From Lenzites betulinus (Eukaryota > Basidiomycota > Agaricomycetes > Polyporales > Polyporaceae), in NCBI GenBank assembly GCA_022264855.1, contig JABYQU010000091.1, positions 1 through 56,145 on the forward strand: 56,145 bases of DNA. Reading direction: 5' to 3'. The notes beneath the pieces were generated by a model that searched no databases, was not told where the DNA came from, and was given only the letters and a program-made list of their open reading frames with translations. Shown in pieces: positions 39,891 to 51,117 of the stretch (position 1 is the stretch's first letter; each line of letters starts with the position of its first letter). The position numbers and the translations under genes are program-made.

Positions 39891-40127
39891 GGGGGGGATC
39901 GCTCCAGAAGCGACAACATAGGCTGAGCAGTGAGGCTTGGCCCGGAGGAAGCGATATATGGCAGCACTGGTAAGTGCGCAGAATTTTTGACCTCATTAGA
40001 AGTGCATAGAGGAAGCTGATTGATATTAGATTGTAGTTTATTGAATAGAGCCTCGTCGTTGGGTCCCCCTCTCAGCCGTTTCGCTGCACGAAGATTCTGT
40101 GAGTTGAATAGGCCGTGAGTCAATGCT

Positions 40128-40369
40128 TGTAAGGGACGCTCCGGTGGACTTAGCCCGAGGGCTGGTATTCGTTACCCGTAGAATAACTCATTCTATTATG
40201 TAATACGTAGTCGCGTACGGCGTCCGAGTATTCGGGGCTCGGGCGCCTGGTGGGGCAAGTCTTTTGCCAACGCCCACCATCCTCACGGAGTACGCCGCCT
40301 AATAAAGGCCCGGACCAAGCTACTTCGTTAGGAATTGGGCACGGTAAAAGCACCCACGTGAACTTAACA
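40128..40369 (+). repeat. 5' LTR
   Basis: 242 bp, beginning TGTAAGGGACG and ending ACTTAACA, with an AATAAA polyadenylation-type signal at 40301-40306. It differs from the 3' LTR only at the G in TTCGGGGCTC, where the 3' copy has A. Promoter and transcription start are expected inside it. Confidence 0.97.
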
Positions 40370-40457
40370 CTTTTTTAGCTTTCCGTGAAGCTTTACAGCT
40401 ACGCCTCACTGGGCGACGTACACGTCATCAGTGACTACTGACTATTTCGAATAGAAC

Positions 40458-43400
40458 ATGGAAGTCCCTGGGAACTTCCCGGCCAGCAGCAGAAGGCCAT
40501 CTCGATCGTCGCGCCCGACGACTCCCTCGGGTCCAGTCACCACGAGTGGTGCTGGACCTTACAGGCCGAGTGCCTCCAGGCGGGAATCGCCTACACAAAC
40601 AGGCTCTCAGGCTGCGACTAGAGCCCATAGTCGCGTAGATCGCCGCGAGTCATACCAATTTCCCCGGGTGTCGCCGGGATCTACTCCGGAGGATGTGCCA
40701 ACAGCTAGTCAGCTGGGATTGAGCTCTGCCCTACATGTGGAAACCACGAGGGGCAGGACTTCCGCGGCCGACAAGGGCAAGGGCCGGGCCGCTCCACGGC
40801 CGTCATCTCGAACTGAAGGATACCATTCGGCACGAGTGTCCAATGTATCTGTGAGATCTCGACCGCCTAGTCAGTTAGACAAGGAGGCCGAGCCGGTAGA
40901 TGATATGCCGGTAGGCATGGTTAGTCCCCGGTCCTCACCAATAATTGGCCCAAACATGGCTATAAGCCAGTCGTCAGCACTTCAGCTGGTATCATTGTTA
41001 CAGGCGTCGAGACGCAGATTTTCGACGCTGCGCCTGGAAGTGCAACGAGCAGAGGACGAGCTTAATGCTCAAGTATCCGACCTACTGGGAAGAATCGCCG
41101 AAGACGGCGAAGATGGAGACATCCCGGAAGGATATGCTGATGTGCATGTTGAAACGCCCGCAGTAGACGTTTCCCAAGGATCTCCTAGGCAATGGCATCG
41201 GGACGAGGAGGACGAGGTAGAAGGGGAACTATTGGACGCTGCCTCGGAAGTAGGACAGTCGGACGAGGATGTTGATCCTCATGAAAGGCTGAAACACGGC
41301 CGGCTCCAACGGCTAACCGCAGCTGGACTAGCTAAGTCCGACGTGTCTGGGCCCTCCAGAAGTGCGCCTGCTCCGCCCAATAACACGCCGTTATTGTCGG
41401 CTACAACCACTCGTAGCCCGCTGGACATTCCAGAGCCACGAAGAAGCGTGGCATTCGACTCCGCTAACTTGCGCCGCAGACGTACTGGAGCCGCGGAAGG
41501 CCGCGATGAATCGTCCGCTTCGACTACGCCATTTCGGCGTACCACCATGCCTTCAATCTCCGTATTCGCCAGAGCGGACCCTTTACGGTCCCGCCGATCC
41601 ATGGCCCCTTCTCGATTTCTGGACAATCGGATGAGCTCAGCGGCGGGGCAAACGCCTGGTGCCATGGCTGGACGGGACGATCTGGCCTACCTTGTGCCTG
41701 AAAACGGACCCAGGGATATACAAGGCGTCCAACGTATATTGGACATGATTCAAGAGTCGGTAGCCGACCCACCTACCACGGCGCCGCCAGCATATCTTAA
41801 AGTAGCCAAATTGGCGGTGCCCAAGGCATTTGAGGGCAAGGATGACCCAGATGGGTTTATAGTTTGGCTCCAGAATCTGCTGGAATACTTTAGTACATTA
41901 CGAATTACAGGTCCTGAGCTGGACGGGGATCGAGTGCGAATATTAGGCACCTGCCTGGGCGGCGACGCAGCCACTTGGTTCCAGAATACCATTCGATCCC
42001 CTTCACGCGATAAACGCGATTGGTGGTTTGACGAGGCCATCGTCGGCCTATATCGCCGGTTTATACATCGGGACATCCATATGGTCGCCGCTCATGAATT
42101 TGAACAATTGCAGTATAGTGCCGAGAAGGGCGGAGTTGCCTCGTTATACGAACGATTACTATATCATGCAGAGCGCATGTGGGAGACTCCCACTCAGTTC
42201 CAACAACGTCAGAAATTCATGGACGCGTTGCCCGACCGATTCGAGGAATTGTTGACTGTATATAACGGCCTGTCCGTGCAGTATAATTCATTGACGGAGC
42301 TGTATCAAGCAGCATTGGACCTAGAGCAAAACTCACGGTCTATGGCAATGCGCCGAAAGTCGAGGACATCGACTGCAGCACACCCTGCTAGTAGCAAGAG
42401 TGCTAATGACCACAAGGGTAATAAACCCAAGGAGGACGCGGAGAAGGGAGCCTCGCGACCTGTTCGCAGCGTGTCTAGGGGGTTTGGTAGGCGAGGATTT
42501 CGAGGCGTGAATGCCTCAAATAAGCCCTCAGCTCCGCCTGCTGCGCCTCATGCCCCTCAACAACGGACTGATAAGCCGAATGCCAGTAAAGCGACTGTGA
42601 AATGTTTTGCATGTGGACAGATAGGTCATTATGCGGCCGACCCCACTTGTCCCAAATTCAATCAGCGAGGAATCGCTGGGCCGAAGATGTTTGCACAAAG
42701 AGTAGTGGATGACAATTCGGACCATGAGAATAGCGGGCTAAACGCTCAGGCAGCCTCAGACGAGAAAGCCTTGGAAGCTAGTGAATACGAAGCCGAAGGG
42801 CTCATGGAAGAGGAAACATATCCCGATGAGGATGAGTATCCCCAGTCTGAACCGGGCTACGGCGGATCGCAGTACGAAAGCGATGTGAACGAGGCGGACT
42901 CGCCAGGCGAAATAGACGATTACGGGGACGCCGTATTATTTGGGGCCATGAGGGTAGAGTCCCTACGAAACGATGGTGTCGGTGAGGCCGAACGGCTTAA
43001 TAGCATGGCCGTAGCGAGAGACAAGGGCTTGAGGCACGCATGGTTATACGACGCTAAAGTGCGAAAGGCCACGGATGATGGGGATCAACCACAACGGAGG
43101 CTAGACAGCCAGCGTACATTATGCGCCGAACTATGGATAAACAACGTCAAGGCGCTTGTGCTGTTTGACTCTGGGTGTACTACGGATTCTATTACTCCGG
43201 AATTTGCCTATATCTGCAAAGCTAGCAGGGTTGATTTGAAGGAGCCAGTAGGGCTTCAACTGGGCACGAAGGGTAGCAAGACCCGCATTAATTTTGGTGC
43301 AAGGGCTACTTTGACAGTGGGAACTGTTAAGAAAGAACAATACTTCGACGTTGTCGACATAGACCGATACGATGCCATACTGGGAACAGTGTTTTGTCGC

Positions 43401-43550
43401 GAGCATGGAGTGCTCTTAGATTTTGGCCGTGACCAGATAGTGGTCAGAGGAACGGTGATACCGTTATTCAAAGAACCAATTATCAATACGGCGATGAAGG
43501 AGTATAGGCCAGGGAATCGCGTGCCGAACAAGGCTAATCCTGTCAAATAG
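40458..43550 (+). CDS. Gag-protease polyprotein of the chromovirus
   Basis: A 1030-residue ORF coding for the capsid, nucleocapsid and aspartic protease of the retrotransposon particle. Residues 1-430 are disordered, rich in Ser, Arg and Pro. Residues about 445-630 are the Ty3/Gypsy capsid-type domain (LAVPKAFEGKDDPDGFIVWL through ALDLEQNSR). A zinc knuckle lies at 716-731 with Cys716, Cys719, His724 and Cys731, so the last spacing is six residues instead of the usual four. An acidic linker leads to the protease, with active-site Asp904-Ser905-Gly906 in LFDSGCTTDS and the flap/ILGT region DAILGTVFCREHGV. The stop is UAG, followed by GGG, and pol continues in the same frame six bases later. 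The ATG at 40458 is 88 bp after the LTR. Confidence 0.95.
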   Translation: MEVPGNFPASSRRPSRSSRPTTPSGPVTTSGAGPYRPSASRRESPTQTGSQAATRAHSRVDRRESYQFPRVSPGSTPEDVPTASQLGLSSALHVETTRGRTSAADKGKGRAAPRPSSRTEGYHSARVSNVSVRSRPPSQLDKEAEPVDDMPVGMVSPRSSPIIGPNMAISQSSALQLVSLLQASRRRFSTLRLEVQRAEDELNAQVSDLLGRIAEDGEDGDIPEGYADVHVETPAVDVSQGSPRQWHRDEEDEVEGELLDAASEVGQSDEDVDPHERLKHGRLQRLTAAGLAKSDVSGPSRSAPAPPNNTPLLSATTTRSPLDIPEPRRSVAFDSANLRRRRTGAAEGRDESSASTTPFRRTTMPSISVFARADPLRSRRSMAPSRFLDNRMSSAAGQTPGAMAGRDDLAYLVPENGPRDIQGVQRILDMIQESVADPPTTAPPAYLKVAKLAVPKAFEGKDDPDGFIVWLQNLLEYFSTLRITGPELDGDRVRILGTCLGGDAATWFQNTIRSPSRDKRDWWFDEAIVGLYRRFIHRDIHMVAAHEFEQLQYSAEKGGVASLYERLLYHAERMWETPTQFQQRQKFMDALPDRFEELLTVYNGLSVQYNSLTELYQAALDLEQNSRSMAMRRKSRTSTAAHPASSKSANDHKGNKPKEDAEKGASRPVRSVSRGFGRRGFRGVNASNKPSAPPAAPHAPQQRTDKPNASKATVKCFACGQIGHYAADPTCPKFNQRGIAGPKMFAQRVVDDNSDHENSGLNAQAASDEKALEASEYEAEGLMEEETYPDEDEYPQSEPGYGGSQYESDVNEADSPGEIDDYGDAVLFGAMRVESLRNDGVGEAERLNSMAVARDKGLRHAWLYDAKVRKATDDGDQPQRRLDSQRTLCAELWINNVKALVLFDSGCTTDSITPEFAYICKASRVDLKEPVGLQLGTKGSKTRINFGARATLTVGTVKKEQYFDVVDIDRYDAILGTVFCREHGVLLDFGRDQIVVRGTVIPLFKEPIINTAMKEYRPGNRVPNKANPVK

Positions 43551-43556
43551 GGGAGC

Positions 43557-46500
43557 ATGACGCAATCCACTAAGGTGGAGCCCTCCCGCACGCGTCATGC
43601 GCTCTCAGAGTCGAGTATGGAAAGGGGAGGGGACGGCAAGGAAGCCGTAGACATTCCAATTCGACATCAAGGACGGGCAAAAAATAGCTCAATGCCTGTA
43701 ATCATGGAAGAGATGCCGCCTTCGGTGCATTCGTCGGAACACCGGCTAAAAGTAGCCAAGGAGGAGAATCAGCGCCGAATAGGCCGAGTAATGGAACAAA
43801 TTGCTATAGGGCAATGGGAGGAGATACGAGACAAGAGTAGCCATATGGCTACGGTGGAGGATGACGAAGAAGCCGAGCTAGAGAAGCTCCGGGAGAAGTG
43901 GTATAAGGCCACGGAGGATATAATGCGGCCGCCGCCGGAGGAGCTGCCCCCATTCCGGGAGGTAGATCATAAGATACCACTCATCGATGAACATAAGACA
44001 TACAAGTATCACCTGCCAAGATGCGCAGAGTCTATAAAGACTGAGCTATTGGCCAAGATTAACAGATATGTGAAGGCAGGTTGGTGGAAGCCAGCTACCG
44101 TGCCGCAAGCGGCGCCGTTATTATGTGTAGCCAAGAAAGATGGCAAGCTAAGGACTGTCATTGACGCAAGACAGCGTAACGACAATACCGTTCATGATTT
44201 GACTCCGTTCCCGGATCAGGACCAAATCAGGATGGACGTAGCCCGAGCCAAATATCGCTCGAAGATCGATTTATCCGATGCGTATGAACAAGTTCGCATT
44301 ATTGCGTCGGATATCTGGAAAACTGCGTTCGCGACGCCCTTTGGGACGTTTGTGAGCGAAGTCATGCAACAAGGCGATACGAATGCGCCATCCACCTTCC
44401 AGAGACTAATGACCACGATATTTCGTGAGTTTATAGGCCGATTCGTACATGTGTATCTAGACGATATTTTCGTCTTTTCCAATACCAAGGCAGAACATGA
44501 AGAGCACTTGAAGCTCGTGTTTGATGCGCTCCGTAAAGCGAAGCTATACTTAAGTCGCAAAAAGTGCGATTTGTTTTCGAAGAGCTTAGACTGTCTCGGC
44601 CATCGGATTGATGACCGAGGGCTACATGCAGATACCGACAAAATGAGCCGTATCCGCCATTGGCGGACGCCTCGTACATATCACGACGTCCAACGATTCT
44701 TAGGACTAGTCAACTACTTGGCGCATTTCATGCCTGACGTTACTTCATACACTGCCCCGTTAGCGGACATGGTACATAATGACCGGCCGTTCATATGGCG
44801 GGCCTTACATGATAAATGCTTTGAATCGATCAAAGCCCTAGCATGTAAAGTGCCCATTCTACGGCCTATTGATCCTAATAAGCCAGAGCCAATATGGCTG
44901 ATTTGTGATGCCTCGCTGTATGGAGTAGGAGTGTTGTATGGTCAAGGCCAGGATTGGCAGACTTGCAGGCCTGCAGGGTTCATGTCAAAGAAATTGACGA
45001 GTGCACAAAGAGCCTATAGAACCTACGAGCAAGAAGCTCTCGCCATCCTAGAAGGACTACTCAAGTGGGAAGACAAGCTACTGGGACGGAAAATCCGTAT
45101 AGTGACCGACCATCGAGCCTTGGAACTTCTCAAGGGTGTTCCCCGGCCTAATAATAGGCAGATTCGTTGGTATGAGTACCTATCTCGATTCGACTATACG
45201 ATATCGTACATACCGGGTCACCTGAACAAGGTCGCAGACTGTTTGTCGAGGTATCATGAGGCCGATGGATCTCATGACTTGTTCGAGGAATACGAATATG
45301 TTAATGCCGACGCCAGGCTAGACCCTGATAGGGATGATTTGCCCCAGTCCCGAGTACTTGAACTAGGTGCCGGCCGTATAATTCGTCATACTGCCAAGAA
45401 AATGGCCATGATAGCGGAGGCAGAAGCAGCCCGTAAACTGAGAGAGCCCGTAGAAGCTCGGCAAGAAGAAGCGGCTGAGTACGCCTCGCATCAGCCCAGG
45501 CCAGTGGTGCGAGAAACGCAGGATGAGGAGGCCAATCCAACACTATCGGAATCACTGGCTAATGGGCCATCATTACGCCTGTATGTGGAGATGGAGGATG
45601 GGCTGATGGAAGCCATTCGGCGGGGTTATAGCCACGATGTCACGTTTCGGAAGATAGTGGAGAATCCGGACCACCACCGTAACTTCCGACAGCCCGATGG
45701 GCTAATATACACGAAAAATCGTGATTATGAAGAAGTGTTATGCCTTCCCCGAGTGTTATTCGGTCGCAGGATGATTCCTGAACTTATTTTAGACCGAGCT
45801 CATACAGCATTGGGCCATTTAGGACCGCAACGGACCGCGGAATACATCCGCAGATGGTTCTGGTGGCCTACTTTGAGGCGAGATGTGGATAAGTTCTGTA
45901 CCACCTGTGGTATTTGTCACATGGCTAAAGCATCGACTCAACGGCCTGCCGGGCTATTACACCATCTGCCGGTGCCCAGGCGGCCTTGGGAGTCTATTTC
46001 TATGGATTTCGTTGGGCCATTCCCGGTCGCGTTTGGTTGCGATTATATATGGGTAGTAGTGGATCGACTGACGTCGATGGTCCACTTGATACCCATCCGA
46101 ACAACGGATACTGCCGCCGAATTGGCGTTAATATATCTCCGAGAAGTTGTGCGGCTGCATGGGCTGCCGGAATCTATTGTCTCGGACCGAGACAGTAAAT
46201 TCACGTCCAAGTTTTGGCGAGAACTTCATAGACTAATGGGAGCAAAACTGCTCATGTCTACTGCGTTCCATCCTCAGACCGATGGATTAAGCGAGCGAAC
46301 TATCCGCTCAGTAACACAGATATTGCGTGCAACCGTGGCGCCAGATCAGCTGGATTGGTACCAGAAATTGCCACTGGTAGAGTTTGCATTGAACTCGGCG
46401 TCAAGCGCTACTACCAAGTTTGCTCCATTTGAGCTCAACTACGGATACTTGCCTCGGACCATGAATGGTATCAATACTAACTCGCACTTCGCGGGTGTAC

Positions 46501-47096
46501 GGGAATTCGCCGTAAGGGCCCGAGCCAATGTGGAAGCGGCTCATGATGCTATAATCGATGCAAGAGTGGCACAGACTCATTATGCAAATAAGCATAGGTC
46601 GGCGGAACCAATATACAAGGTGGGCGATCAAGCCTACCTATCCACAAAAAATCTATCGCTGCCCAAGGGCAGAGCTCGAAAGCTGGTGCCCAAATATATT
46701 GGGCCGTTCCGAATTACGGAAGCGTTTCCCGACACGTCTAGCTATACGCTGGAACTACCGCCTGAGATGAAGGCCAGAAGGATACATCCGCGATTCCATG
46801 CATCCTTACTCCGGCCTCACGAGCCCAATGACGATGCACTGTTTCCTCATCGTGAAGCCCGTGCGTTCTACGATATTGGGGAGGACGACAGCACAGAGTG
46901 GCTGGTGGACGAAATCATCGGCCACGAATGGCAGGGCAATAAGTGCCGATTTCACGTCCGTTGGACATTGGGCGATCATACCTGGGAACCATACGATAAC
47001 TGCAAAGACTTAGCGGCGCTCGATGGATATTGCCAGCTTATGGGCGTGGACAACTGGCAGTTACTGCCAAGGAAACCAAAAGCCCGCACGCCATAG
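43557..47096 (+). CDS. Pol polyprotein: reverse transcriptase, RNase H, integrase, chromodomain
   Basis: A 1179-residue polyprotein that copies and integrates the element. After an N-terminal acidic helical region come reverse transcriptase (KIDLSDAYEQVRI; active site Tyr300-Leu-Asp-Asp in VYLDDIFVFS; LGHRIDDRGL), RNase H (LICDASLYGVGVLYGQ), the integrase HHCC zinc unit (HTALGHLGPQ to FCTTCGICH), and the integrase core with Asp817, Asp877 and Glu913 in DD35E spacing. A GPY-type region follows (KYIGPFRITEAF). The C-terminal chromodomain, about 1110-1165, includes VDEIIGHEWQGNKCRFHVRW and TWEPYDNCKDL, which in this clade directs insertion to particular chromatin. The protease is absent because it lies in the upstream ORF. 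All catalytic residues are present. Confidence 0.97.
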   Translation: MTQSTKVEPSRTRHALSESSMERGGDGKEAVDIPIRHQGRAKNSSMPVIMEEMPPSVHSSEHRLKVAKEENQRRIGRVMEQIAIGQWEEIRDKSSHMATVEDDEEAELEKLREKWYKATEDIMRPPPEELPPFREVDHKIPLIDEHKTYKYHLPRCAESIKTELLAKINRYVKAGWWKPATVPQAAPLLCVAKKDGKLRTVIDARQRNDNTVHDLTPFPDQDQIRMDVARAKYRSKIDLSDAYEQVRIIASDIWKTAFATPFGTFVSEVMQQGDTNAPSTFQRLMTTIFREFIGRFVHVYLDDIFVFSNTKAEHEEHLKLVFDALRKAKLYLSRKKCDLFSKSLDCLGHRIDDRGLHADTDKMSRIRHWRTPRTYHDVQRFLGLVNYLAHFMPDVTSYTAPLADMVHNDRPFIWRALHDKCFESIKALACKVPILRPIDPNKPEPIWLICDASLYGVGVLYGQGQDWQTCRPAGFMSKKLTSAQRAYRTYEQEALAILEGLLKWEDKLLGRKIRIVTDHRALELLKGVPRPNNRQIRWYEYLSRFDYTISYIPGHLNKVADCLSRYHEADGSHDLFEEYEYVNADARLDPDRDDLPQSRVLELGAGRIIRHTAKKMAMIAEAEAARKLREPVEARQEEAAEYASHQPRPVVRETQDEEANPTLSESLANGPSLRLYVEMEDGLMEAIRRGYSHDVTFRKIVENPDHHRNFRQPDGLIYTKNRDYEEVLCLPRVLFGRRMIPELILDRAHTALGHLGPQRTAEYIRRWFWWPTLRRDVDKFCTTCGICHMAKASTQRPAGLLHHLPVPRRPWESISMDFVGPFPVAFGCDYIWVVVDRLTSMVHLIPIRTTDTAAELALIYLREVVRLHGLPESIVSDRDSKFTSKFWRELHRLMGAKLLMSTAFHPQTDGLSERTIRSVTQILRATVAPDQLDWYQKLPLVEFALNSASSATTKFAPFELNYGYLPRTMNGINTNSHFAGVREFAVRARANVEAAHDAIIDARVAQTHYANKHRSAEPIYKVGDQAYLSTKNLSLPKGRARKLVPKYIGPFRITEAFPDTSSYTLELPPEMKARRIHPRFHASLLRPHEPNDDALFPHREARAFYDIGEDDSTEWLVDEIIGHEWQGNKCRFHVRWTLGDHTWEPYDNCKDLAALDGYCQLMGVDNWQLLPRKPKARTP

Positions 47097-47191
47097 GGAC
47101 TAATGCATATTTGCACGAATTGGAAGGACTTGGGCGATGCTCGCCACGATAATTGACAAAAGAATATACGACGCGCCATGCCCGTGACTTG

Positions 47192-47372
47192 ACGCGTGAC
47201 GACGCGACGCGACGCGTAAGCGCCTTAGTGGTGGAATCTGAGATAGAGCGCTTCGTACTTCACCGCTAAGGGTCGACTACCCGTACAGCGTGAAGGCCGC
47301 GCCAGCAAGTCGTCGGCTGCCTCCTGCTCTCTCTCTACCTTCTTCCACCATCTGCTACATCTTACCGCGCAC
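47192..47372 (+). promoter_or_regulatory. Possible internal promoter upstream of ORF3
   Basis: In the 287 bp between pol and ORF3 there are two ACGCGT hexamers (47192-47197 and 47212-47217) joined by tandem GACGC units. A long C/T-rich stretch follows (about 47308-47365), ending shortly before the ORF3 ATG. ACGCGT is the MluI cell-cycle box bound by MBF in yeasts, and C/T-rich leaders mark transcription starts in filamentous fungi. Function here is inferred only. Confidence 0.35.
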
Positions 47373-47383
47373 CGAACAACACC

Positions 47384-49717
47384 ATGCCTGCCGACAACAC
47401 GAACCCCTCGGACGAGACTGGACCTCCTAACCCCGCCGAAATGGCGGTAGACAGCGCTTTGGCCAATACGGCTTTGAACGCGGCGACGCCGTCGACGGCA
47501 ATGATGCCGGTGTTTGGACAGTTCCCGCAACAAGCCCAGTTCACGGCCATGCAGCCTACATTCATGACGGGGATGGGCCAATCGGCACAGCAGGGCATAT
47601 ACCTGCAGCAGCCCCCGGTAGGCTATGGGTACGGGGCTGGAGGCCAATTTCGGCCGGGTCCTACGATGACTGGAGCAATGGGAGCGCCATCACAAATGGG
47701 AATGGCGCCCGGAATGCCGCCGCTGATGCCTCTAGCATCGTTATCATGGGCCGCAGTGCCCGGGCACCCATTGCTCGTGGCTCACACTGTTGGATGCGCT
47801 GTCTGCGCCGAGTTCATTCGGCACTACATGGCCGCGGCCAACGACGCGGCTTTCATAGAGGCCCAGACTACGGTACAAGGGGAGCTACAGGCTCGCTTCT
47901 GGCGCCACTTCGAAGAGCATGCTCGCTCTGAAGGGGGAAGGGCGAGGGAAGAGGCCGAGCGAGTAGCTCAAGAATTAGCGACGGCCAACGCTAGGATAGA
48001 GGAGTTGGAGGCGGCACGAGAACGAGAACAGGCGAGGAATCGCCGTCAGACAGCAGAAGACCGCGAGCTGTGGGAGCGATACCGCTCGGAGAGAAACACA
48101 GCGAGAGAACGCGTGAATGAGTTGGAGGACGAACGACGTCAAATGATGCGACAAATGGAAAGTATCCGTCCATCATCGGCATTGACTTCGGTGACTCATG
48201 GGTCGGGTTCGTCTGGGTATATACAGCGCGATCCTCGCGAAATGAGCCCACGGCGCGACCGCCAGGACTCAGGACATGGACGCATTCGGACCCCTCCTCG
48301 CCGAACACAGGATGATCGCCACGATGACTACCCTCAAGCGGGCCGGTCAAGCGACGTGCTCGACAAGTTTACGGCTTTCTCGGACGAGTCCGATGAGGAT
48401 GAAGTATACGATGTGGATCGGATCCGGAAGGTGTCCGACCGACAACGAGTCCGTCATGCCCGGCGCGACCAGCCGCCTCCACCTGCACCAGGAACTGGTC
48501 CGGCTTTCACCATGAATGGGCCGCACGCGCCAACAATCCGGATACCGGATGGCTGGCCCAGCAATATGCTGACTGTACCGGGGGAATCTGACGCAAGGTT
48601 GGCGTCGCATTGGTACAATTTCGTGCCTGTGACCACGGAGGATGCGAGAATGCTCATGAGCGCATCTCACGCCGATATGGGCGAGGCCCGTCATCGAATT
48701 CAACACCTCCTGGCCCAGATCGCGGCTAACCCGGCGCTGACGGGAGTGCAAGGGTTGCGAGTGCTGAACGAGCACTGGCGCAACCCTGATCGACGGTCCG
48801 CGCCCCTAGGGACAGCCCCTGCTCGTAGTTATGGACGTCGGGGATCCCCCCAATATACTCCACCGGGACTAGTCCCCACGTCTACCGCACACCTGCCGCC
48901 ACCCTCCCGCACGTGGACCGAACCGGCCAAGCCTCGTATCAACCAGCCTCGATTGGCCGACGCGGTGAGCCGCTGGATTGAATGGCTGTCGCTGCATCAG
49001 AGCCGTATCCCCGCGTGGATGGAGCGTGTGGACGGCACCATGGACGGGGCGCCTCGGGCCGAGAATGTAGAGCTGCATCTCATGATTCGCAGGCCCGTGG
49101 GCCGGGGTGTATCGGTCGACGACCGGGGTCGATGGATATCTCTGTCTCAGGAGTTGTTCTCCGTCCAGGGGCTGTATCGGCATATCGTTCAGCGAGGGAA
49201 CTACCCGCGGCAACCCGTATACTCCCCCGATGCTCGATTCGCAGGATCATACCGCGAGGGCGAGCTCACCCTGTTCCATGTCGCTCGATGGTACGCCAGT
49301 GCGGGCGTGGGGTACGATTTGGCCGATCGTGTACAGGTCTCCGCCTGGCGAGCTCGAGCGCTCTTTCACGGCCGTGATTACGCCGAGACACAGTACGTGT
49401 TCCCCGGGGTGAACGCGGTAGCCGACGTGCCTGCGGTACCTAATCTGTTCGAGCTGCAAACCGCTCATGCTCTTATCCCGCCTACAACCGCATTCTTGGC
49501 CACGCCGGCTCCGCCTGCCCCTATTCTCGGGCTGCCAGTAGGCAATGCCCCGGAGCCCCAGGACACCGAGATGACCGACGGTCCCGCCGCGGGGAGCTCT
49601 GACCAGGGACTCGCAGGTGGCGGCGTGGTCGCCGGGACCTCTCCCGCGGTGACTGGAGGATCGCAGTCCTCAGCAAGCACGCCGCTTGCTAACGCGGGTG
49701 ATCCCGCCTCATCGTAA
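47384..49717 (+). CDS. Third ORF of the chromovirus, unknown function
   Basis: A 777-residue protein encoded in sense after pol, in a different frame from pol. I do not recognise it. Residues 1-120 are low complexity, rich in Met, Pro, Gly and Gln. At 134-147 there is a possible zinc site, His134, Cys138, Cys141, His147 (HTVGCAVCAEFIRH). Residues about 160-260 are a long charged coiled coil (AREEAERVAQEL, ANARIEELEAARERE). A Ser/Arg/Asp-rich disordered stretch follows to about 400. The C-terminal third looks folded, with many Trp and aromatic residues (DAVSRWIEWLSLHQSRIPAW, VELHLMIRRPVGRG, YREGELTLFHVARWYASAG), then a Pro/Ala tail. No signal peptide or membrane segment is visible, so it is not envelope-like. 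The frame is fully open over 2.3 kb in a young element, which argues for a real protein. Confidence 0.85.
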   Translation: MPADNTNPSDETGPPNPAEMAVDSALANTALNAATPSTAMMPVFGQFPQQAQFTAMQPTFMTGMGQSAQQGIYLQQPPVGYGYGAGGQFRPGPTMTGAMGAPSQMGMAPGMPPLMPLASLSWAAVPGHPLLVAHTVGCAVCAEFIRHYMAAANDAAFIEAQTTVQGELQARFWRHFEEHARSEGGRAREEAERVAQELATANARIEELEAAREREQARNRRQTAEDRELWERYRSERNTARERVNELEDERRQMMRQMESIRPSSALTSVTHGSGSSGYIQRDPREMSPRRDRQDSGHGRIRTPPRRTQDDRHDDYPQAGRSSDVLDKFTAFSDESDEDEVYDVDRIRKVSDRQRVRHARRDQPPPPAPGTGPAFTMNGPHAPTIRIPDGWPSNMLTVPGESDARLASHWYNFVPVTTEDARMLMSASHADMGEARHRIQHLLAQIAANPALTGVQGLRVLNEHWRNPDRRSAPLGTAPARSYGRRGSPQYTPPGLVPTSTAHLPPPSRTWTEPAKPRINQPRLADAVSRWIEWLSLHQSRIPAWMERVDGTMDGAPRAENVELHLMIRRPVGRGVSVDDRGRWISLSQELFSVQGLYRHIVQRGNYPRQPVYSPDARFAGSYREGELTLFHVARWYASAGVGYDLADRVQVSAWRARALFHGRDYAETQYVFPGVNAVADVPAVPNLFELQTAHALIPPTTAFLATPAPPAPILGLPVGNAPEPQDTEMTDGPAAGSSDQGLAGGGVVAGTSPAVTGGSQSSASTPLANAGDPASS

Positions 49718-49775
49718 ATGGCCGCCGCTCGTATCCCGTTCTCTAACGCCGCCGTATGTCGCAGTTGGAATTATT

Positions 49776-50359
49776 CGACACACCTTGCCCAGTGTGTCGT
49801 CTTAGCATTGGGCCCGCGCTGCTTATATTCGCAGCCAGACATTGTAACTACCCGACTACAATGTCCAATCAAGGGTTATCGCTGCTCATATTCGCAGCAA
49901 CAAGGTCGTGTAGTTGCCCGACTACCTCGACTCAACTAAGGGCTCGCGCTGCCGATATTCGCAGCAAAGTGTTGTAGCTACCCGACTACAATACTCAATC
50001 AAGGGCAACTGTCGCTTATATTCGCGACCGTCACCAAATCCAGTAATGGATTAGACCGTGCTATTGAACTCTCCATATACCTACTACACACGCAGACTTG
50101 CTGCGCGGATTGAATTTATCGTTGGAGGCCAGCCAACTCATCAGGCATTTCTGGTCAATCGCCGCTTATATTCGCGGCCTGTATTATAAATGGGGCTAAT
50201 ATTGGCCCGAAGCTCAATCCCTTCGCTCGTTAGCATGAGTGCTAGACATTCACCCGCCTGTAATGATGATACTACCAGGGGTGCAGCCAACGTACGCTGG
50301 TTGGCTGATTGCCCTTGACCACCTAATATTAAAGCGCTATTGCTGCTCATATTTGCAGC
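49776..50359 (+). repeat. Array of alternating RNA-like hairpins with conserved loops
   Basis: Non-coding, between ORF3 and the 3' LTR. Type A hairpins have a 5-bp stem and an 8-nt loop near TTATATTC: 49818-49835, 49881-49898, 49948-49965, 50011-50028, 50161-50178, 50342-50359. Their stems read GCTGC/GCAGC, GTCGC/GCGAC or GCCGC/GCGGC, so changes are compensated. Type B hairpins alternate with them: 49776-49799, 49841-49862, 49910-49925, 49972-49991. Stem sequences are unrelated (CGACACAC/GTGTGTCG, ATTGTA/TACAAT, GTAGT/ACTAC, TTGTAG/CTACAA) while loops resemble CTACCCGA. A further perfect 8-bp stem with an 8-nt loop lies at 50284-50307. The first four A units repeat every 63-67 nt, with a CAATCAAGGG-like linker. 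Confidence 0.85.
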
Positions 50360-50393
50360 TTTTAACTATCATATTAGACCCCGTGTCAGGTCT

Positions 50394-50404
50394 AGGGGGG
50401 AGAG
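50394..50404 (+). other. Polypurine tract
   Basis: AGGGGGGAGAG lies directly before the 3' LTR, the expected plus-strand primer of reverse transcription. Confidence 0.85.
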
Positions 50405-50646
50405 TGTAAGGGACGCTCCGGTGGACTTAGCCCGAGGGCTGGTATTCGTTACCCGTAGAATAACTCATTCTATTATGTAATACGTAGTCGCGTACGGCGT
50501 CCGAGTATTCGGGACTCGGGCGCCTGGTGGGGCAAGTCTTTTGCCAACGCCCACCATCCTCACGGAGTACGCCGCCTAATAAAGGCCCGGACCAAGCTAC
50601 TTCGTTAGGAATTGGGCACGGTAAAAGCACCCACGTGAACTTAACA
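50405..50646 (+). repeat. 3' LTR
   Basis: 242 bp, identical to 40128-40369 except for one G-to-A difference in TTCGGGACTC. It starts directly after the polypurine tract and ends ACTTAACA. Confidence 0.97.
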
Positions 50647-51117
50647 GGTACCCATGTTGTATGCTGGACCCTGAACGTAACAGTGCCATATATAACATCC
50701 ACAGGAACCATCCTCAACCCAAACATAGCAGGCACCCGACATGCACGCTGTAATATGTACAGATAGGCATACAGCGACGGTGCACCAGGAGGCCTGGAGT
50801 GGATCTCGAGCTAGCTGATGGGTCACACAATGGCCCTACAGTGACGTCTCAGGGTATTGCATCCTTGCCCAGCGGTGTCCCGTTATGTAGTGCATGCCAC
50901 ACGGTGACCGACATGGCGACCTGCATGCATCGAGGCTAGCAGACTGCAGCGGCTAGGTTTCCTTTCCCAGAGCCTGCCGTCCCATTCGGGCGAACTGCTC
51001 ACGTGCGTTCAATTCCTCTACACAAGTTTTCCACATACCCTCTCACCGTTGCTTTAAACTCCTCGTGTCCAGCTACACATCTGCCGACGTTCTACACCGT
51101 GACGGCCGCCTGCCAGC
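50647..51117. other. Flank between retrotransposon and alpha-kinase pseudogene
   Basis: No gene seen. Probably the former promoter region of the alpha-kinase gene. The first five bases (GGTAC) do not match the five bases before the 5' LTR. Confidence 0.5.

Follow-up and report, generated by a model that had tools for sequence, protein, structure and literature searches.

A conserved plus-strand RNA fold in the 3' non-coding region of a chromovirus-type retrotransposon from Lenzites betulinus

Why should the non-coding interval between the last ORF and the 3' LTR of a retrotransposon be crowded with small hairpins? To our knowledge, there are few LTR retrotransposons for which the marking of their own RNA is understood in detail. 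The window, which is the whole stretch of DNA analysed here (56,145 nucleotides), is contig C100 of the 37.4 Mb genome of the white-rot fungus Lenzites betulinus, and the genome-wide searches cover this one genome. A sequence-only reading of the window had described an array of two alternating hairpin types, A and B, whose stem arms change together, and had taken it as a sign of selection on RNA structure in a chromovirus.

The element carries RT, RNase H and integrase in that order together with LTRs and a polypurine tract, and in the Pfam search RT, RNase H, integrase and a Tf2-type SH3 domain were all above their cut-offs. The chromodomain (PF00385) is a weak match (16.1 bits, E 0.011, cut-off 25.1) obtained with the last 179 aa of pol, and it is not listed when the whole of pol is searched against Pfam at E 0.01. 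By eye the end of pol, VDEIIGH...FHVRW...HTWEP, fits a chromodomain. The assignment to the chromoviruses therefore fits, with three enzymatic domains passing the cut-offs and a weak chromodomain match. Each LTR is 242 nt long; the pair was scored 100% identical by the comparison, with one base differing by eye. The 5' leader between LTR and gag is only 88 nt long, and the hairpin array sits in the 687 nt that separate the stop of ORF3 from the 3' LTR (Table 1). No TGG start of the usual tRNA primer site was seen by eye right behind the 5' LTR. The letters flanking the element (ATGCT at 40123-40127, GGTAC at 50647-50651) show no target-site duplication, which would fit exchange between elements.

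Table 1. Features of the retrotransposon and of its 3' array in the window.
Feature	Position	Strand	Remarks
LTR retrotransposon (chromovirus type), whole element	40128..50646	+	flanking LTRs and gag/pol domains
5' LTR	40128..40369	+	conserved in C33, C53 and C90 from about position 100 onward
gag ORF	40458..43550	+	UAG stop in frame with pol; zinc knuckle and protease matches both below the Pfam cut-off
pol ORF	43557..47096	+	RT, RNase H, integrase, weak chromodomain
ORF3, 777 aa	47384..49717	+	no assigned function; open reading frame list
Stem-loop with 24-nt run (CTAACG...CAGTT)	49742..49769	+	run invariant in 7/7 copies
B1	49776..49813	+	stem 49776-49783/49792-49799; proposed pseudoknot GCCC 49787-49790 with GGGC 49810-49813
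A1 hairpin	49818..49835	+	GCTGC-TTATATTC-GCAGC
B2	49838..49876	+	stem 49838-49846/49857-49865; proposed pseudoknot ACCC 49850-49853 with GGGT 49873-49876
A2 hairpin	49881..49898	+	
B3	49905..49943	+	interrupted stem 49905-49931; proposed pseudoknot GCCC 49916-49919 with GGGC 49940-49943
A3 hairpin	49948..49965	+	
B4	49969..50006	+	stem 49969-49977/49986-49994; loop ACCC 49980-49983 with GGGC 50003-50006, first pair A.C in window
A4 hairpin	50011..50028	+	GTCGC-TTATATTC-GCGAC
Hairpin GTTGG-AGGCCAG-CCAAC	50121..50137	+	97.1% of cells paired
A5 hairpin	50161..50178	+	GCCGC-TTATATTC-GCGGC
A-like hairpin GGGC-TAATATTG-GCCC	50193..50208	+	stem covaries in other copies
Hairpin TAGCA-TGAG-TGCTA	50231..50244	+	lost in C90, gives no support
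Two-part hairpin	50276..50317	+	outer 50276-50282/50311-50317; inner CAGCCAAC 50284-50291/50300-50307; loop GTACGCTG invariant in 7/7; four pairs with double changes
A6 hairpin	50342..50359	+	GCTGC-TCATATTT-GCAGC
Hairpin adjoining polypurine tract	50375..50394	+	TAGACC...GGTCTA; common to family 2; innermost pair A.C in window
Polypurine tract adjoining 3' LTR	50395..50404	+	read from sequence
3' LTR	50405..50646	+	LTR pair comparison

It was found that the hairpins are real and far beyond chance. A scan for perfect Watson-Crick stem-loops (stem of at least 5, loop of 4-10) gave 16 in 49776-50359 and 18 in 49718-50404, so that the earlier figure of at least ten was an undercount. For 49718-50404, 1000 dinucleotide shuffles had a mean of 3.57 and a maximum of 11, none reaching 18, and among 191 half-overlapping 584-nt tiles of the window the only one to reach 16 is the tile on the array. 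Similar excess was observed in other copies, with 15 stem-loops in C33, 14 in C53 and 11 in C90, reached by 0 of 300 shuffles each. The z score of RNA folding is -4.1 for the plus strand and -2.2 for the minus strand (20 shuffles each). Three of the 18 hairpins, at 50091, 50182 and 50208, lie outside the consensus fold of the copies. The A hairpins all have 5 bp stems and 8-nt loops with three stem versions, exactly as described before. The four B hairpins (49776, 49838, 49910, 49972) were also recovered, but their stems reach 9 bp instead of 8, and the period of 63-67 nt holds for the first four A hairpins (spaced 63, 67 and 63) but not for the last two.

A DNA search of the genome found the 3' region at seven loci representing four lineages. 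Identity to the window is 99-100% in C54 and C30, 79% in C33 and 72% over about three quarters of the region in C53 and C81, and C90 matches in three pieces. ORF3 is present at all seven loci having the 3' region, interrupted in C54 and C81. Among C100, C33 and C53 only, identity is 98-100% in A stems, 85-88% in A loops, 85-89% in B stems, 72-78% in B loops, 63-74% in other loops and 59-69% in linkers. The A stems are thus far closer between lineages than the fourfold-degenerate sites of ORF3, at which identity is only 41-51%, and this contrast speaks for constraint. Better conservation of loops than of linkers, which the sequence-only reading had expected, is thus clear for the A loops, somewhat visible for the B loops and hardly so for the others.

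In the alignment of the seven copies 86 pairs were named, in 14 helices; helices with missing modules or with a misplaced C90 row were set aside. Of the 598 cells 96.7% are paired, as against 26-42% in slid controls. Double-sided changes occur in 10 of the 86 pairs (15 cells, fewer as independent events, since near-identical copies were counted as separate rows); 0 of 500 shuffles reach these values and the slid controls give at most 3 pairs. One of the five measures used, that of further pair types, shows no excess (20 as against 19.2 in shuffles, 224 of 500). B2, A2 and the two-part hairpin are the best-supported helices. RNAalifold, one of the checks that had been suggested, was run on the seven copies of this genome. 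Its consensus has double changes in 18 of 122 pairs, but the covariation term is weak and contributes only -0.19 to a total of -142.6 kcal/mol. When C33, C53 and C90 are compared with C100, 17 double changes keep Watson-Crick pairing and 2 do not, and 15 one-sided changes keep pairing while 14 break the pair. Stem arms mutating without compensation had been named as the sign that would count against the fold; compensated pairs (10 of 86) and such uncompensated one-sided changes (14) are both present. Compensatory stem changes go beyond the controls and A loops are kept better than linkers, and the claim of selection on RNA structure is supported. Thus a fungal element can have, in its 3' non-coding sequence, folded RNA that is kept as closely as its proteins.

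The strand on which selection acts can be told from the mismatches that are tolerated. Over 17 helices in six copies there are 548 Watson-Crick cells, 26 G.U, 1 A.C and 20 other, the G.U cells sitting on few positions (9 of the 86 tested pairs) and therefore not amounting to 26 events. It should be noted here that C54 was omitted from this count as nearly identical to the window, and C90 was omitted from five helices because the alignment places it wrongly where modules are missing; these five helices and B3 are absent from the 86-pair test, and B3 also from the strand count. Two further A.C pairs are found outside the counted set, one in stem 1 of the third module of C33 and the other in stem 2 of the fourth module of the window. 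A palindrome at the DNA level would keep A.C as readily as G.U. Since G.U is kept and A.C hardly is, it is the plus-strand RNA that folds, and the 3' non-coding region forms an RNA domain whose fold is conserved by selection on this strand. This count also bears on the idea that there is no RNA function at all and that tandem or inverted DNA repeats are kept here by duplication, conversion or as DNA-binding palindromes. The modules are indeed tandem copies, and segments do pass between lineages, as in C53, whose first 1.5 kb match the window at 96% identity. However, 26 G.U against 1 A.C already contradict it, conserved stems alternate with diverged linkers, and lineages that share the modules agree at only 41-51% of their fourfold sites, so that we regard it as highly improbable.

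The array has a regular inner organization. Cutting at the (A/G)CCC loops gave 13 modules of 62-64 nt, four each in C100 and C33, three in C53 and two in C90. In all 13 a GGG stands 7-11 nt behind the 3' arm of stem 1, and the resulting stem 2 can pair at all four places, G.U included, in 12 of the 13 modules (51 of 52 cells). Stem 1 is 8-9 bp long, the first loop is short, stem 2 has 4 bp and the third loop is often A-rich, a geometry that suits an H-type pseudoknot; the hairpin loop is complementary to sequence on its 3' side with fitting loop lengths. Judged on these letters, the B hairpins are probably H-type pseudoknots. The likeness of the B loops reported earlier stands, and it probably exists because the loop CCC can pair with the downstream GGG. 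In stem 1, 95 of 104 cells pair with their own partner. The mean per module is 7.31 of 8 and falls to 3.19 when partners are swapped (0 of 20000 permutations), a contrast somewhat inflated since register and loop lengths were picked for best own pairing. The A stem is paired in 64 of 65 cells (31 of 20000 permutations). The permutation for stem 2 (5794 of 20000) has almost no power to detect covariation because GGG and CCC hardly vary. One compensatory difference is seen in B2, where stem 2 begins with an A-U pair in the C100 group and with G-C in C33, C53 and C81 (GCCC/GGGC in C33 and C53); in C90 this first pair is G.U as aligned, with the row shifted by one there. It is likely that the core of the array consists of tandem modules, each an H-type pseudoknot with a variable, covarying stem 1 and a constant CCC/GGG stem 2, followed by a hairpin with the near-constant loop NNAUAUUY. 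The probable pseudoknots, the covarying two-part hairpin, the hairpin before the polypurine tract and the folding strand are new beyond the sequence-only reading. The case for structure in the 3' region is strong.

A loops were also sought with at most one mismatch to AUAUUY and without regard to the flanks. Flanks that pair fully over 5 bp stand beside 6 of 13 matches in C100, 5 of 10 in C53, 4 of 9 in C33 and 4 of 13 in C90. These hairpins occupy corresponding places in the copies, and most of the other matches have no paired flanks. In C33 the third A loop departs (TAATGCTC) and the fourth A stem is without its outer pair. The A pattern with a GCNGC stem has 21 matches in the genome, of which 20 are in copies of the family and the one elsewhere does not fully pair. 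Recognition sites usually look like this, with a loop that is nearly constant while its stem changes, and we infer that the A loops are such sites. Pairing of the A loop with GAATATA in the pol-ORF3 gap (47162) was considered and put down to chance, as GAATAT is absent there in C33, C53, C81 and C90.

With its letters changed but its shape kept, the array appears to work through that RNA shape, most likely as a set of recognition handles for the RNA of the element. The variable stems could be serving as a scaffold, the A loops, four to six per copy, would be sequence-specific candidate binding sites, and the pseudoknots would space and present them. Gag of the element, through its zinc-knuckle part, would read the A loops, and the array would mark full-length RNA for collection and packaging; the invariant-loop hairpin at 50276-50317 perhaps helps to bring two RNAs together, or both ends of a single one. 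We give this reading, of scaffold, sites and spacers read by Gag for packaging, a probability of about 0.4. Packaging by Gag is our first choice because the array is at the end of the full-length RNA, the 5' leader is short, the sites are repeated and Ty3 depends on UTR or POL sequences. In Ty3, RNA localisation and packaging are described as depending on UTRs or POL sequences, and the same account of Ty1 has the 3' UTR dispensable for retrosome localisation, the packaging sequences near the 5' end, and a pseudoknot whose role in packaging could not be shown (PMC4974528). The position between the last ORF and the 3' LTR favours packaging, and the sub-threshold zinc knuckle of Gag counts against it. 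None of the seven loci having the 3' region is a copy with LTRs and array only, so that the argument from trans-mobilisation is missing. From position and by analogy, a multi-site platform on which Gag picks the genomic RNA would be the most likely role. That the array represents a new class of retroelement RNA domain, with modular beads of pseudoknot and constant-loop hairpin gained or lost as whole modules and forming a multivalent docking site for Gag (or ORF3) at the 3' end of genomic RNA, is a tentative proposal which we hold to be possible but doubtful. The natural variants with two to four modules make binding, packaging and export addressable module by module.

The main rival is an RNA export or stability element, comparable to a constitutive transport element or to a response element read by ORF3. 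Here the A loops would bring in ORF3 or an export adaptor. In this way unspliced full-length RNA, which has an early gag stop and a long tail, would leave the nucleus and escape decay. Retroviral transport and response elements are structured RNAs with repeated features for binding that lie behind the last ORF and before the 3' LTR; the Mason-Pfizer element sits in this interval, as the Lenzites array does. The array differs from them in its fungal host, in splicing that is only putative and in having no Rfam match up to E 1 over 40000-50700. The gag stop codon is far from the end of the RNA, and ORF3 is under strong protein constraint: among C100, C33, C53 and C90 its first and second codon positions are 86-92% identical and its fourfold-degenerate sites 41-51%, which indicates old lineages and a constrained protein. 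In Cer1 of C. elegans a third-ORF protein is reported as needed for export of the genomic RNA, which serves as a precedent (PMC10309623). On the other hand, splicing of this element is only putative, no A modules turned up in the six loci searched of family 2, which does have ORF3, and the predicted ORF3 model (mean pLDDT 55), with a disordered N-terminus, a long helix at 155-261 and a confident helical domain at about 521-690, found no fold match at E 0.001. Taken together, the export reading is possible but somewhat unlikely. ORF3 has no Pfam match; it has at least 11 database relatives, and all 7 named among the matches listed are from Lenzites and Trametes. No ORF3 relatives were found in viral contigs, where the hairpin word gave 9 single matches, about chance by a rough estimate. 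That ORF3 is a copy of gag was rejected for want of similarity (best E 0.16).

Loops of the 3' region could also pair with the 5' LTR or leader of the same or another RNA, for reverse transcription or dimers. Four 7-mers in three clusters are complementary between the 3' region and the 5' end in all four lineages (0.64 words expected). Among them, GCCCAGTG of B1 (49787-49794) can pair over 8 nt with CACTGGGC of the leader (40407-40414), again in all four (0.13 expected), and CGTACGC at 50291 is complementary to GCGTACG of the LTR; CGTACG is also self-complementary. Precedents are described for Ty1, with its CYC5/CYC3 and PAL palindromes, and for Ty3, whose primer site is split between both ends (PMC9503155, PMC4974528). 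These counts are nevertheless small and near chance, there is no shared 9-mer and the words partly share a palindrome. The 5' end of C53 is nearly that of the window by exchange, leaving fewer than four independent lineages there, and the A hairpins are left unexplained, so that contact between the ends is an improbable function for the array.

The array could instead help the poly(A) signal of the 3' LTR over the identical 5' one, or control translation like the upstream pseudoknots of tobamoviruses. AATAAA stands in the conserved part of the LTR about 220 nt behind A6, the array is at the 3' end only, and the UAUAUU-like A loops resemble the yeast efficiency element. Efficiency elements are not known to be structured, however, and by eye the LTR of the family 2 copy L019 is without AATAAA at that place; a role in 3' end formation or translation is in our opinion quite improbable. 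In tobamoviruses the upstream pseudoknot domain consists of consecutive H-type pseudoknots in the 3' untranslated region, which is like the present arrangement, but the Lenzites element is not a plus-strand RNA virus and its hairpins are interleaved. Exonuclease-resistant RNAs pair a loop with a downstream strand and were considered for this reason; a literature search on them returned 0.

Ty3 and Ty1 of yeast are alike in being LTR retrotransposons whose genomic RNA needs structured ends in cis, and the 5' end of Ty1 is described as carrying a functional H-type pseudoknot (PMC9503155, PMC4974528). By comparison, the probable pseudoknots of Lenzites are tandem, at the 3' end and joined to repeated hairpins. 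The 2016 review states that Ty3 RNA structure was uncharacterised and that Gag sites on Ty1 and Ty3 RNA were not precisely defined (PMC4974528). In this white-rot fungus the array offers candidate sites that are exactly placed, repeated and backed by evolutionary evidence. Plant Retand-type elements also have tandem repeats between pol and the 3' LTR, beside extra ORFs, and these arrays are reported as family-specific and of varying length (PMC11963269). In the accessible text of that paper the terms "hairpin", "secondary structure" and "RNA structure" are absent, and in contrast to such arrays the diverged Lenzites lineages keep the same stems. Our literature searches, for which most subscription papers were out of reach, found no description of a pseudoknot-hairpin array in a retrotransposon 3' region.

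The related family 2 has an ORF3 which is 41-45% identical in the longer matches. Its copy L019 has a 3' region of 344 nt in which 6 perfect hairpins were counted; the shuffles average 1.87, and 4 of 300 have at least 6. Most family 2 copies compared start the 3' region alike; L018 and L028 do not. The first hairpin after ORF3 is CGCAGGTG-CCTGCCC-CACCTGCG, with a TGCCC loop like that of B1, then TTGGC; B1 is nearly the first hairpin in the window, and from this likeness the two are tentatively considered homologous. No A modules were found in six family 2 loci, and not every relative needs the array. The best hit of the module model R1 in these loci (13.6 bits, E 0.017) was on the opposite strand inside ORF3 and was not accepted.

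Other parts of the element show some minor features. The C53 copy (L078), compared with 40190-41700, is 96% identical over the first 1.5 kb and 72-76% further on, and such mosaic copies could have arisen by recombination or template switching. C80, C65, C46 and C19 carry LTR, leader and gag-pol junction at 99-100% without the 3' region; C80, C65 and C46 have no match from window position 44800 on and C19 none from 46302 on. At the gag-pol junction (43548-43559) the sequence is AAA UAG GGG AGC AUG and pol continues in the gag frame. This is present in all seven close copies, and the exact word is absent from three divergent copies inspected (L075-L077); readthrough or re-initiation is possible at this place. 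The interval 40228-40457 takes in the LTR beyond about position 100 and the 88-nt leader. In C33, C53 and C90 this part of the LTR and most of the leader are nearly unchanged, unlike the start of the LTR, which differs strongly. In the same three copies the blocks CGCGACGCGTA and ACTTCACCGCTAAGGGTCG of the pol-ORF3 gap (47205-47275) are conserved amid diverged sequence, and they could possibly be a promoter, splice or structured element for ORF3.
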